Shown here: piece by piece, positions 1 through 54,053 of the stretch
Layout of the letters: every line of letters starts with the position of its first letter
Numbering within the stretch: position 1 is the stretch's first letter
Notes under the pieces: model-generated
Databases searched by the model: none
What the model saw: the letters and a program-made list of their open reading frames with translations, nothing else
What the model was told of the DNA's origin: nothing
From: Lachnoclostridium sp. An76
GTDB lineage: Bacteria; Bacillota; Clostridia; Lachnospirales; Lachnospiraceae
Direction: 5' to 3'
DNA: 64,000 nucleotides
Assembly: GCF_002161355.1 (NCBI RefSeq)
Contig: NZ_NFHL01000007.1
Coordinates: 1 to 64,000, forward strand
Translations under genes and position numbers: made by a program

Positions 1-588
1 CCTCCGCAGTCACCTCAGTCACCCACACACCCGTGCTGAAAGGTTTTCGAAAAAGGCGCTTCGCTGTTTTCTGGTTTACTCAAGCCGGAAGGTCCCCAGC
101 AAATGCAGCATTTAAAAACGTAGCGAGAAGGGAACTTTCCCGGCAAAAGGCACCCCCTCTCCCGGAAGTCCGCGGTCCCTTCCGATTGGTAAAACTTCTT
201 GTTTTGCCGCTGAAGCTCCCCTCTCACCCACCTTTCGAAATCCTGCATTTGACTGCGGGGACCTTCCGATCGGATGCGCGCAGAAAACCGACCCTTTGAT
301 GCGCCTTTCGCGGCGGGCGGGGATATGGCGACGGTGACTTGGAGTAATCTGCTGGAAAGACTTAAAAGAATGGGATGCGGCGTTAATTTCAAAGCGGATG
401 CCTGAGCCGCAGGCGAATCTTCCGCTTTGAAATTGTCCTTAGCCGTATCCCATTCTTTTTACGTCTTTCCCAGATTACGGAACCGGAACCTGAGCCATAT
501 CCCCGTCCGCCGCGAAAACATCCTCAATCAGATCAACGGTTTTCGGACGTTATATCCACAAGGAAGGCTCCTCCACAAATACAGATTT
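1..588. repeat. Structured repeat element, copy A (left part outside window)
   Basis: This non-coding stretch is homologous to the right two-thirds of copy B at 29216-30175; base 1 here corresponds to about 29463 there. Near-identical blocks lie at 1-130 and about 235-588. Copy B carries roughly 150 extra bases in the middle. The right end, with ACAAATACAGATTT at 575-588, is the same terminal inverted repeat as in copy B. A nested hairpin occupies about 306-518: TTTCGCGGCGG near 306 pairs with CCGCCGCGAAA near 508, GTAATCTG with CAGATTAC, and inner arms 385-398 and 421-434 pair perfectly. The segment 20-38 is one arm of another hairpin whose partner must lie upstream of the window. Short open frames here do not keep their reading frame between copies, so I see no protein. 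Confidence 0.85.
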
Positions 589-27872: not shown

Positions 27873-29216
27873 ATGGGTAAATATTTTGGGACAGACGGTT
27901 TCCGGGGCGAGGCGAATGTCGTCCTGACAGTGGAGCACGCATTTAAAGTGGGACGCTATCTGGGATGGTATTTCGGACAGGATCACAAGGCAAGAGTCGT
28001 GATCGGCAAGGATACAAGAAGGAGCAGCTATATGTTTGAGTATGCGCTGGCCGCAGGACTGACAGCTTCCGGGGCAGACGCGTACCTTCTCCACGTTACT
28101 ACAACACCCAGCGTTTCCTATGTTGTAAGGACAGAAGATTTTGACTGCGGGATCATGATCTCAGCAAGCCACAATCCTTTCTATGACAACGGGATCAAAG
28201 TGATCAACAGTGCAGGGCATAAGATGGAGGCAGAAGTCGAGGAGAAGATCGAGGCATACATTGACGGCGAGACAGAAGAGCTTCCCCTTGCCACAAAAGA
28301 AAAGATCGGGCGCACTGTGGACTATGCAGCGGGAAGAAACCGCTATATCGGGCATCTGATCTCCCTGGCGACAAGGTCCTTTAAAGATATGAGGGTAGGA
28401 CTTGACTGCGCGAACGGAAGCTCCTCTGCTATCGCGAAGAGCGTGTTTGACGCGCTGGGAGCAAAGACTTATGTGATCAATAACGAGCCGGACGGCACGA
28501 ATATCAATACGGACTGCGGCTCCACCCATATCCATGTGCTCCAGGAGTTTGTAAAAGAGAAAAAGCTGGATGTCGGATTCGCGTATGACGGAGATGCAGA
28601 CCGGTGTATCGCGGTAGATGAGAACGGAAACGTCGTGGACGGCGACCGTATCATGTACGTGTGCGGCAAATATCTGATGGAGCAGGGACGCCTGGAGGGC
28701 AACACGATCGTCACAACAGTGATGTCAAACCTGGGGCTCTACAAGGCATGCGATAAGATCGGAATGAAGTATGAGCAGACAGCAGTCGGCGACAAGTACG
28801 TATATGAAAACATGCTGAAGAACGGATTCGTGCTCGGCGGCGAGCAGTCCGGACATATCATCTTCAGCAAACATGCGAGGACAGGCGACGGTATCCTGAC
28901 TTCCCTGATGATCATGGAAGTTATCCTGGAGAAGAAGCAGACTCTCGGCAAGCTGGCGGATGAAGTGAAGATCTTCCCGCAGCTTTTGAAAAATGTCCGC
29001 GTGAAGGATAAGAAGACCGCAAGGGAAAATCCGGCAGTGCAGGCAGCGGTGCAGAAAGTCGCAGACGAGCTTGGAAGCGACGGGCGCATCCTCGTGCGCG
29101 AGAGCGGCACAGAACCGGTGATCCGCGTCATGGTCGAGGCGGCGTCAGATGAGATCTGCGCGAAGTATGTGGACAGCGTGGTAGAAGTCATCGAGGCGGA
29201 AGGCCTGTCAGAGTAA
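27873..29216 (+). CDS. glmM: Phosphoglucosamine mutase
   Basis: Converts glucosamine 6-phosphate to glucosamine 1-phosphate for UDP-GlcNAc and peptidoglycan synthesis. The 447-residue length is standard. The N-terminus is KYFGTDGFRGEAN. The active-site phosphoserine loop is MISASHNPFYDNG near residue 100, the metal-binding DGDADR near 239, the sugar-binding GEQSGH near 325, and the phosphate-binding RESGTEPVIRVMVE near the end. It is not beside cdaA-cdaR, its usual Firmicute neighbours. The stop codon (29214-29216) abuts the terminal repeat of the structured element. Confidence 0.96.
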   Translation: MGKYFGTDGFRGEANVVLTVEHAFKVGRYLGWYFGQDHKARVVIGKDTRRSSYMFEYALAAGLTASGADAYLLHVTTTPSVSYVVRTEDFDCGIMISASHNPFYDNGIKVINSAGHKMEAEVEEKIEAYIDGETEELPLATKEKIGRTVDYAAGRNRYIGHLISLATRSFKDMRVGLDCANGSSSAIAKSVFDALGAKTYVINNEPDGTNINTDCGSTHIHVLQEFVKEKKLDVGFAYDGDADRCIAVDENGNVVDGDRIMYVCGKYLMEQGRLEGNTIVTTVMSNLGLYKACDKIGMKYEQTAVGDKYVYENMLKNGFVLGGEQSGHIIFSKHARTGDGILTSLMIMEVILEKKQTLGKLADEVKIFPQLLKNVRVKDKKTARENPAVQAAVQKVADELGSDGRILVRESGTEPVIRVMVEAASDEICAKYVDSVVEVIEAEGLSE

Positions 29217-29294
29217 AATCTGTATTTGCGGGGGAGCCGACAGATTGGTTAAACGTCCGAAAACAGTGAAGCACGGTTTATAGAAGACGTATTC

Positions 29295-29500
29295 AGCACG
29301 GGTGTGTGGGTGGCTTCGGCTCCGGGGCTCCGTGGCAGCAAAAACTAAGAAATCCGGGACTATGCTAAAGACAGAGATCAGCAGGGCGCAACTCGGCGTT
29401 GCCTCAGACAAGCCCCCTGCTGATCTCAACGCATAGTCCCGGATTTCAAGTTTTTTCAAGCCCCTCCGCAGTCACCTCAGACACCCACACACCCGTGCTG
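29295..29500. repeat. Left nested hairpin of copy B
   Basis: Perfect stems stack from outside in. CAGCACGGGTGTGTGGGTG (29295-29313) pairs with 29482-29500. GGGGCT (29324-29329) pairs with AGCCCC (29459-29464). GAAATCCGGGACTATGC (29349-29365) pairs with 29431-29447. GAGATCAGCAGGG (29374-29386) pairs with 29415-29427. A small apical GCAAC/GTTGC hairpin lies at 29388-29402. No long T tract follows, so it is not an ordinary terminator for glmM. Confidence 0.9.
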
Positions 29501-29870
29501 AAGGGTTTTCGAAAAGGCGCTTCGCTGTTTTCTGGTTTACTCAAGCCGGAAGCCCCCGACAAATGCAGCGTTTAAAAACGTAGTGAGAGAGGGGAACGTC
29601 TTCGACAAAAAGTAACCCATCCCCAGCCAGCAAAAACATACAATGGGGAAAAACTCTCCGCAAAAAAGTAAAATCCCCTCAGCAGGCAGAATTCTATAGC
29701 CAGAGAGGCGTAGCTCGCTGCGCCAAATCGAACGGCTAATATCCCCTCCCGGAAGCCCACATCACCTTCCGTCCGATAAAAATTCCTGTTTCGCTACAGA
29801 AGATCCCCTTTCATCCAACTTTCGAAATCCAGCATTTGACTGCGGGGATCTTCCGATCGGATGCGCGCAG

Positions 29871-30130
29871 AAAACCGCTCCTTTGATGCACCTTTCGCGG
29901 CGGACGGGGATATGGCGACGGTGACTTGGAGTAATCTGCCGGAAAGACTTAAAGGGAGAAAGCGTGGCGTTAATTGTCCGGCGGATGCCTGAGGCGGAGC
30001 CGAATCTTCCGCCGGACAATTGCTTTTAGCCATGCTTTCTCCCTTTTACGTCTTTCCCAGATTACGGAACCGGAACCTGAGCCATATCCCCGCCCGCCGC
30101 GAAAACGTCCTGCATCAAACCAACGGTTTT
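29871..30130. repeat. Right nested hairpin of copy B
   Basis: Outer stems AAAACCG/CGGTTTT, TTTGATGCA/TGCATCAAA, TTTCGCGGCGG/CCGCCGCGAAA and CGGGGATATGGC/GCCATATCCCCG lead to GTAATCTG/CAGATTAC and GGAAAGAC/GTCTTTCC. Then come a variable stem (29951-29968 with 30029-30047) and a perfect 14-bp inner stem (29972-29985 with 30008-30021). The variable and inner stems differ in sequence from copy A yet pair equally well there. Loop sequences such as GGCGTTAATT, TGCCTGAG and TTAGCC are constant. Confidence 0.9.
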
Positions 30131-30236
30131 CGGACGTTCATCCAATCGCCCGGCTCCCCCACAAATACAGATTTGTATATTTGGGGGAGGGCCCGGCAAT
30201 ACTTCTGGGGAAAGAAGACGGAAGGAAGGGCTTGCT

Positions 30237-30425
30237 ATGAGTAAAAAGAAGGAAAAACCGATCGACCTGAAGAATCTGGAGCCGGAGGAAAAGCTGAAGT
30301 ATGAAGTGGCGGAGGAGTTAGGGCTCCTGGATAAGGTGCTGTCCCAGGGGTGGAAGTCGCTGACTTCGAAAGAGACCGGGCGGATAGGGGGGCTGGTTAC
30401 GAAAAAGAAAAAACAGGAACCGTAA
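30237..30425 (+). CDS. Small acid-soluble spore protein, alpha/beta type
   Basis: A 62-residue protein. KLKYEVAEELGLLDKV (residues 19-34) contains the germination-protease recognition region, E23-V-A-E, of alpha/beta SASPs. SLTSKETGRIGGLVTKKKK matches the second conserved DNA-binding block (T/S-x-x-x-x-G-x-x-G-G). These proteins coat and protect DNA in the dormant spore and are degraded on outgrowth. It is monocistronic, 62 bases after the structured repeat, with its own Shine-Dalgarno (GGAAGGAAGGG). Expression is expected in the forespore under sigma-G, but I cannot assign that promoter confidently. Confidence 0.85.
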   Translation: MSKKKEKPIDLKNLEPEEKLKYEVAEELGLLDKVLSQGWKSLTSKETGRIGGLVTKKKKQEP

Positions 30426-53979: not shown

Positions 53980-54053
53980 TGGAAGCAATGGGGCTCGAAC
54001 CCATGACCTCTCGCGTGTGAGGCGAACGCTCATCCCAGCTGAGCTATGCTTCC
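53980..54053 (-). tRNA. tRNA-Val (anticodon CAC)
   Basis: On the minus strand the sequence folds as a full cloverleaf: acceptor GGAAGCA/TGCTTCC, D stem GCTC/GAGC, anticodon stem TTCGC/GCGAG with loop CTCACAC, T stem ATGGG/CCCAT with loop TTCGAGC, and discriminator A. Anticodon CAC reads GUG (Val). CCA is not encoded; a short T-run follows, suitable as terminator. No other tRNA or rRNA genes are adjacent. It converges with the TetR gene, ending 5 bases beyond its stop. Confidence 0.95.

Follow-up and report, generated by a model that had tools for sequence, protein, structure and literature searches.

Large palindromic repeats with most ends at stop codons in a Mediterraneibacter-like genome

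Introduction

REP palindromes are interspersed, for the most part in gaps separating ORFs that are unidirectional or convergent (PMC3733652), while BIMEs contain REPs in alternating orientation (PMC2817692). Most of the bacterial MITEs tabulated in a review show target duplication (PMC2229807), the Coxiella QMITE2 copy at enhC is a single case of a MITE at a gene end (PMC5896051), the DNA-uptake signals of Neisseria and Pasteurellaceae exemplify a repeat co-opted as a gene-end hairpin (PMC1852404), and inverted repeats in E. coli are enriched just downstream of stop codons (PMC6060812).

Here we describe a repeat family from a Mediterraneibacter-like genome that has something in common with each of these. 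With REPs it shares interspersed palindromes between ORFs, and with BIMEs the alternating orientation, but REPs are 20-40 bp long and tagged with GTAG or CGTC, whereas the family in this genome does not consist of 20-40-bp palindromes ending in either tag and instead has ~350-bp units, AAATCTG ends and most ends on stops. Bacterial MITEs (ERIC, RUP, Correia, Coxiella QMITE) are similar in their inverted ends, lack of a transposase and foldability, but most of them have a target duplication, whereas none was found here, nor was a partner IS in the loci inspected. The DNA-uptake signals also amount to a repeated sequence co-opted as a gene-end hairpin, but these are 9-11-nt signals in ordinary terminators as opposed to nested hairpins of 350-960 bp. 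Finally, the E. coli inverted repeats share the position right after stop codons, but are mostly parts of ordinary intrinsic terminators, whereas here one repeat family abuts both stops. By analogy, the family is like a MITE and, at the same time, like a repeat recruited as a terminator; since target duplication was not found and the size and tag of REPs are not found, we class it as an interspersed palindromic repeat that is neither MITE nor REP. The passages of the open-access literature returned by our searches held no description of it.

What the data establish for the family is a high copy number, inverted ends, forms with one or two units, covariation in the stems and the placement of most ends at stops. 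With moderate confidence, we read it as a non-coding palindromic repeat of the non-autonomous type, which took the place of native gene ends and today serves as a two-way gene end. If many gene pairs indeed have it as their common end, message ending in a gut bacterium would have been rewired by a DNA family that looks selfish, and many copies could be tested together. The precision of the boundaries at stop codons raises the question of how repeats in bacteria select or remodel the places they occupy.

Structure of the element

The analyzed stretch of DNA (the window) is 64,000 nucleotides long and corresponds to positions 1-64000 of contig C24. It harbors one complete two-unit element of the non-coding family (copy B) and a second, truncated one (copy A), with the following features:

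29216..30174, no strand: two-unit element copy B, 959 bp
29216..29238, + strand: left terminal inverted repeat, AAATCTGTATTTGCGGGGGAGCC
30152..30174, - strand: right terminal inverted repeat
29216..29572, - strand: L-type palindromic unit on the left, with an approximate right edge and its apical motif on the - strand
29391..29407, - strand: apical motif of the left unit, CTGAGGCAACGCCGAGT
29573..29828, no strand: middle stretch separating both units (edges approximate)
29829..30174, + strand: right palindromic unit, R type (locus L001, 2114-2459)
29989..30005, + strand: apical motif of the right unit, CTGAGGCGGAGCCGAAT
29214..29216, + strand: glmM stop codon TAA; the element begins with the final A of this codon (offset +1)
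1..588, no strand: copy A, left side cut by the contig start

A first-pass annotation of the window had placed the element at 29216-30175; its left edge stands, while on the right the element stops at 30174. The matching inverted ends, then estimated at ~45 bp, are arms of 52 nt (29216-29267 and 30123-30174, 87% complementary) inside which the 23-nt terminal inverted repeats are found, and the two large nested hairpin systems were recovered as pairs I2/I4/I7 and I3/I6/I8 (85-100% complementary). Upstream of copy B is glmM (ORF 27873-29216; TIGR01455, E 3.4e-168), and 62 bp past the end of the element, at 30237, a small ORF starts, to which no NCBIfam model matched at 1e-5.

The basic building block of the family is a ~350-bp palindrome, and the 960-bp form consists of two inverted units around a middle of ~250 nt. 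Each half of the latter has its own polarity, marked by the apical motif CTGAG-N7-CGA(A/G)T, and the two units are opposed in direction. This motif served as the criterion for unit selection; out of 187 unique full-length unit matches, 84 had it in the forward direction, in 80 it was found on the opposite strand (palindromic double hits) and 23 lacked it altogether. In the 84 forward units it can be read as a 3-bp stem with a triloop, namely GGA (27), GCA (22), GAA (14), AAA (12), AAC (6) or AGA (3), with a mismatched A/G in the stem in three cases.

Copy number and size variation

Copy A, which had been proposed as a second copy at 1-588, was confirmed as two matching segments (162 bp with 87% and 433 bp with 83% identity) and is incomplete on its left because the contig begins there. 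Two copies are, however, far too few. We found 171 DNA matches in the own genome, which, when merged by eye, represent at least 40 large places among the matches listed, and further copies beyond these turned up in later searches. The 18-nt end motif, with up to two mismatches, occurs at 66+69 = 135 sites in the own genome vs 0+1 for the reversed-pattern control. Both ends were present in 36 out of 39 inspected loci, and no ORF of at least 50 aa was common to more than eight of the 13 full-length copies (ORFs binned by stop position, 25-nt bins), in agreement with the earlier statement that no reading frame is conserved; the family thereby combines inverted ends with a lack of coding capacity, as MITEs do.

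Distributed by size, the 36 two-ended loci comprise 13 above 940 bp, 14 of 600-940 bp, four of 400-600 bp and five of 340-400 bp. Identity to copy B is 78-89% for the remaining 12 full-length copies (in alignments including 20 nt of flank per side). Small forms of 43, 56, 67, 107 (two), 125 and 162 bp also occur; the minimal ones span 43-110 bp, and the 43-bp form is a hairpin with 20-bp perfect arms around 3 nt. Several contigs of the own and sister assemblies also end within elements, and the repeats therefore seem to break assemblies.

High copy number, inverted ends and the lack of a conserved ORF would also be expected of purely selfish, foldback or MITE-like DNA, in which pairing is maintained because the mobilizing enzyme requires a hairpin in the DNA, and whose position at stops merely reflects what survived selection in a gene-dense genome. 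We consider this explanation possible but doubtful, for reasons given below.

Element ends and stop codons

The first-pass annotation had recognized structure at this locus, but missed the size series, the contig edge and the anchoring at stop codons. For the latter, we searched for reading frames of at least 300 nt with a stop near the element end in 49 two-ended elements (36 large and 13 further ones, small forms included). A stop codon was located within -6 to +3 nt at 71 of the 98 ends (52/72 and 19/26), while the same was true for 241 out of 19600 random positions in the same flanks (1.2%). Counted per element, 26 were stop-anchored at both ends, 19 at one end and four at neither, and the first group thus sits between convergent genes. 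The count omits L020, L033 and L041 (contig ends) as well as L166, L169, L173, L175, L203, L206, L207 and L208; in the omitted own-genome loci, four of the ten clear ends (at most two errors) were at a stop, for a total of 75/108. Ends away from any stop number 27/98 in the main set and 6/10 in the omitted loci. Among loci from an exact-pattern scan of named genomes, 59 of 83 ends were at a stop, a set that is dependent on the main one because many of its sites are orthologous.

The most common offset, +2, was found at 38 of the 71 stop-anchored ends; here the gene contributes the T and the repeat end overlaps the AA (or GA). This precision is the least explained part of the picture, and it is difficult to reconcile with chance survival of selfish DNA, which predicts variable leftovers. 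What fits selfish DNA better is that clear ends facing a start codon keep 30-138 bp of leftover upstream DNA (L005, L009, L018, L024, L028 and L030). The +2 junction could be explained either by a short-homology deletion, joining the AA of TAA with the AA of the repeat end, or by directed insertion. Insertion targeted to stop codons or to sites of termination, be it coupled to translation or mRNA or guided by recognition of terminator hairpins, would account for the sharp +2 peak, its recurrence in a family with different ends (G044, below) and the replacement of an entire spacer at site S2 (below). We nevertheless hold it to be quite unlikely, considering that no enzyme and no fresh insertion were seen, that a short-homology deletion could give the identical junction and that a third of the ends are away from stops.

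Secondary structure

Folding of 29216-30175 gave z-scores of -14 (+ strand) and -32 (- strand), with none of 20 shuffles as low. For the covariation analysis, 28 R-type and 22 L-type units were picked at less than 93% identity out of 50 and 34, respectively, and 24 and 21 of these were used as rows, leaving out five partial units. In the R-type alignment 98.2% of cells pair and 36 out of 84 pairs have changes on both sides, and in the L-type alignment 97.9% of cells pair and 36 out of 78 pairs are changed on both sides. None of 500 shuffles reached these values, and one of 500 reached the R-type value for the measure of further pair types; these shuffles control less well for relatedness than R-scape. 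Pairing is maintained by compensatory changes. Sliding the partners lowered pairing to 36-48%, although this control favors the structures, as they were derived from those very alignments. Changes in the stems are mostly blockwise, with both arms differing together, and the double changes therefore represent fewer events than cells. Taken together, this supports pairing under selection as well as the swapping of entire cores from copy to copy.

Columns with only G.T outnumbered those with only A.C by 15 vs 6 and 13 vs 8 (sign test 0.04 and 0.19), as counted on pairs predicted from both strands. As a test of RNA-level against DNA-level selection this is suggestive, not decisive, and the weak asymmetry leaves room for a constraint on the DNA itself, in line with the selfish DNA explanation. 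On the motif strand of R-type units, two G.U pairs are near-invariant (22/24 and 24/24), while L-type units have one near-invariant G.T pair, on the opposite strand instead.

The first-pass annotation had offered two alternatives, i.e. a large non-coding RNA in multiple copies or a non-autonomous mobile element with a functional fold. The second fits in terms of a non-autonomous repeat with a functional fold, given the many copies, inverted ends and covariation, with its mobility being putative. A multicopy gene for a large structured non-coding RNA would explain the strong covariation and the G.U pairs on the R-type motif strand. It appears very improbable, in that minimal forms of 43-110 bp exist, the units of two-unit forms have opposed polarity, L-type units carry their G.T pair on the other strand and no Rfam family matched at gathering score; the filling of gaps between genes likewise makes a free-standing RNA less likely.

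Comparison of orthologous sites

At site S2 (C1:349902-350258), the gap between two genes in the own genome consists of the element, from stop to stop. Both flanking genes also occur in congeners, of which 23 were searched and 15 retrieved; none of the 15 has a full element there, but other short spacers of 20 to ~190 nt, differing in sequence and often, by eye, with a hairpin and a T-rich stretch. The spacer in element-free congeners differs, with no restored target. In G010, it is just 20 nt long and resembles one element end, i.e. it is possibly an end remnant. Size also varies at other sites: L006 is 959 bp in the own genome vs a 70-nt hairpin with the same ends in G014 (and an unrelated hairpin in G010), the site shared by L024 and L090 holds 350 vs 743 bp, and that shared by L037 and L117 holds 534 vs ~350 bp. 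The order and direction of units could be compared in ten orthologous cases, of which five were reversed (L001, L002, L003, L017 and L037), two agreed (L010 and L024) and three were uninformative (L014 and, twice, L016).

For 31 of the 36 sites the flank reaches an element in another genome, and no fresh insertion was therefore caught. Sites are retained even in species with 79-84% flank identity (L001, L003 and L007), a persistence that argues against purely selfish DNA. Two own-genome stretches contain four sites; at three of these, the genes on either side are not adjacent in any of the matches listed for 23 congeners, and elements thus coincide with rearrangement points.

Under the preferred reading of a repeat that became a two-way gene end, the element would have been spread by a trans-acting enzyme that worked on its ends or hairpins, and would have become fixed where it was able to substitute for native gene ends. 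The former spacer, together with the terminator, would then have disappeared through deletions that fused the stop codon's T to the AA of the repeat, so that in the end the element occupied the entire gap. Transcripts from either side may form long hairpins by which both messages are terminated or protected. An established element could be remodeled by recombination between copies, giving core swaps and inversion, and could shrink via deletion within the palindrome, down to the 43-bp hairpin. Copy number, anatomy, covariation, placement and remodeling of the repeat were observed, and mobility, the deletion step and termination or mRNA capping are what we infer for it. In a bolder version, which we deem unlikely, a mobile palindrome installs itself with precision from stop codon to stop codon and replaces the native terminators of both genes, with its placement set by translation stop signals and its hairpin cores exchanged and flipped like cassettes without loss of pairing.

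A few loci deserve separate mention. L058 (G012, about 1396-2631), at the L003 site, contains unit remnants and an unrelated AT-rich stretch that is coding-like, with a P-loop-like motif by eye. The flanks of L016 and L022 are 97.4-99.5% identical to those of G004 loci L042, L051 and L056, vs 76-82% at other loci, hinting at possible interspecies transfer or contamination. The left flank of L009 is identical in 1200 out of 1200 bases to L112 from Candidatus Mediterraneibacter surreyensis.

Searches for relatives, mobilizing enzymes and signals

OLE, GOLLD, ROOL and HEARO had been named earlier as large RNAs with partial similarities, but no Rfam model, including these, matched at gathering score. 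With E values up to 1, seven microRNA models and one lncRNA model appeared, all far below gathering score; the best was MIR1858 (E 7.4e-5, 39.2 bits vs a gathering score of 137). The sole Rfam match at gathering score in the 64-kb window is a tRNA gene at 53980-54053 on the - strand.

No target-site duplication was found in 46 elements, with four end positions tried. Identical flanks were of 2 nt in at most 12 elements, 3 nt in at most four, 4 nt in at most two and 6 nt in one, and the 2-nt cases are probably TA from two stop codons. A TA duplication, as in RUP and ERIC, was rejected on the grounds that ends away from stops mostly lack the T by eye, and that 2 nt were common in at most 12 of the 46. 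In the inspected loci, no facing pair of ends was more than 966 bp apart, i.e. there was no enzyme with matching ends. The lack of both a target duplication and a partner enzyme at these loci also speaks against purely selfish DNA. The transposase search was confined to Rpn (Transposase_31, PF04754), which was dismissed as a shared mobilizer after giving no match at E 0.001 in G000, G046, G014, G070 and G071; PF04754 matches were present in seven of 26 genomes, and no Rpn was found beside any locus except four in G044. A phage or plasmid origin was also discarded, as blastn of phage and plasmid collections gave no match, and the exact end motif was absent from viral contigs.

Canonical terminators, in a scan covering loops of 3-8, numbered zero at 29100-30300 vs 2.2 in shuffles. 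This counts against the preferred reading, as do the failure to find an enzyme with matching ends at the inspected loci, a target-site duplication or a fresh insertion, and the ends located away from stops in the own genome and in G044. Promoter-like sites were likewise zero, which says little since 0.4 were expected.

Taxonomic distribution

The wider search for copies in Lachnospiraceae that had been proposed earlier was performed with the end motif. Allowing one mismatch, it matched in 24 out of 58 genomes of the genus, but high counts were confined to five of them: G000 (54+45), G046 (48+47), G014 (51+43), G070 (31+32) and G071 (19+18). Lower counts were obtained for G057 (15), G044 (15) and G010 (11), and all other genus genomes had six or fewer. 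Among 200 genomes from 200 genera of the family, 69 had a match, and only the own genome had more than five. With the exact pattern, 68 stretches were obtained from named genomes, the majority in Candidatus Mediterraneibacter tabaqchaliae and an uncultured Mediterraneibacter, while Ca. M. stercorigallinarum and Ca. M. surreyensis contributed a single stretch each.

The complete genome G044 harbors a cousin family with the ends AAATTTGTATTTGTTGGGG, lengths of 524-950 bp and 85.6-94.9% pairwise identity, whose copies were absent among the blastn matches listed for the own-genome elements. One copy was folded and has nested hairpins of the own-genome type. After leaving out two of 12 fetched loci, which lacked two clear ends, eight out of 20 ends were within -6 to +3 of a stop and 12 were not; two of the ten elements had both ends at a stop, four had one and four had none. 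The offset +2 was again the most common value (4/8). Four of the ten copies (L210, L212, L213 and L215) adjoin paralogous Rpn genes with 94-98% protein identity, and one of these genes terminates on the element at +2.
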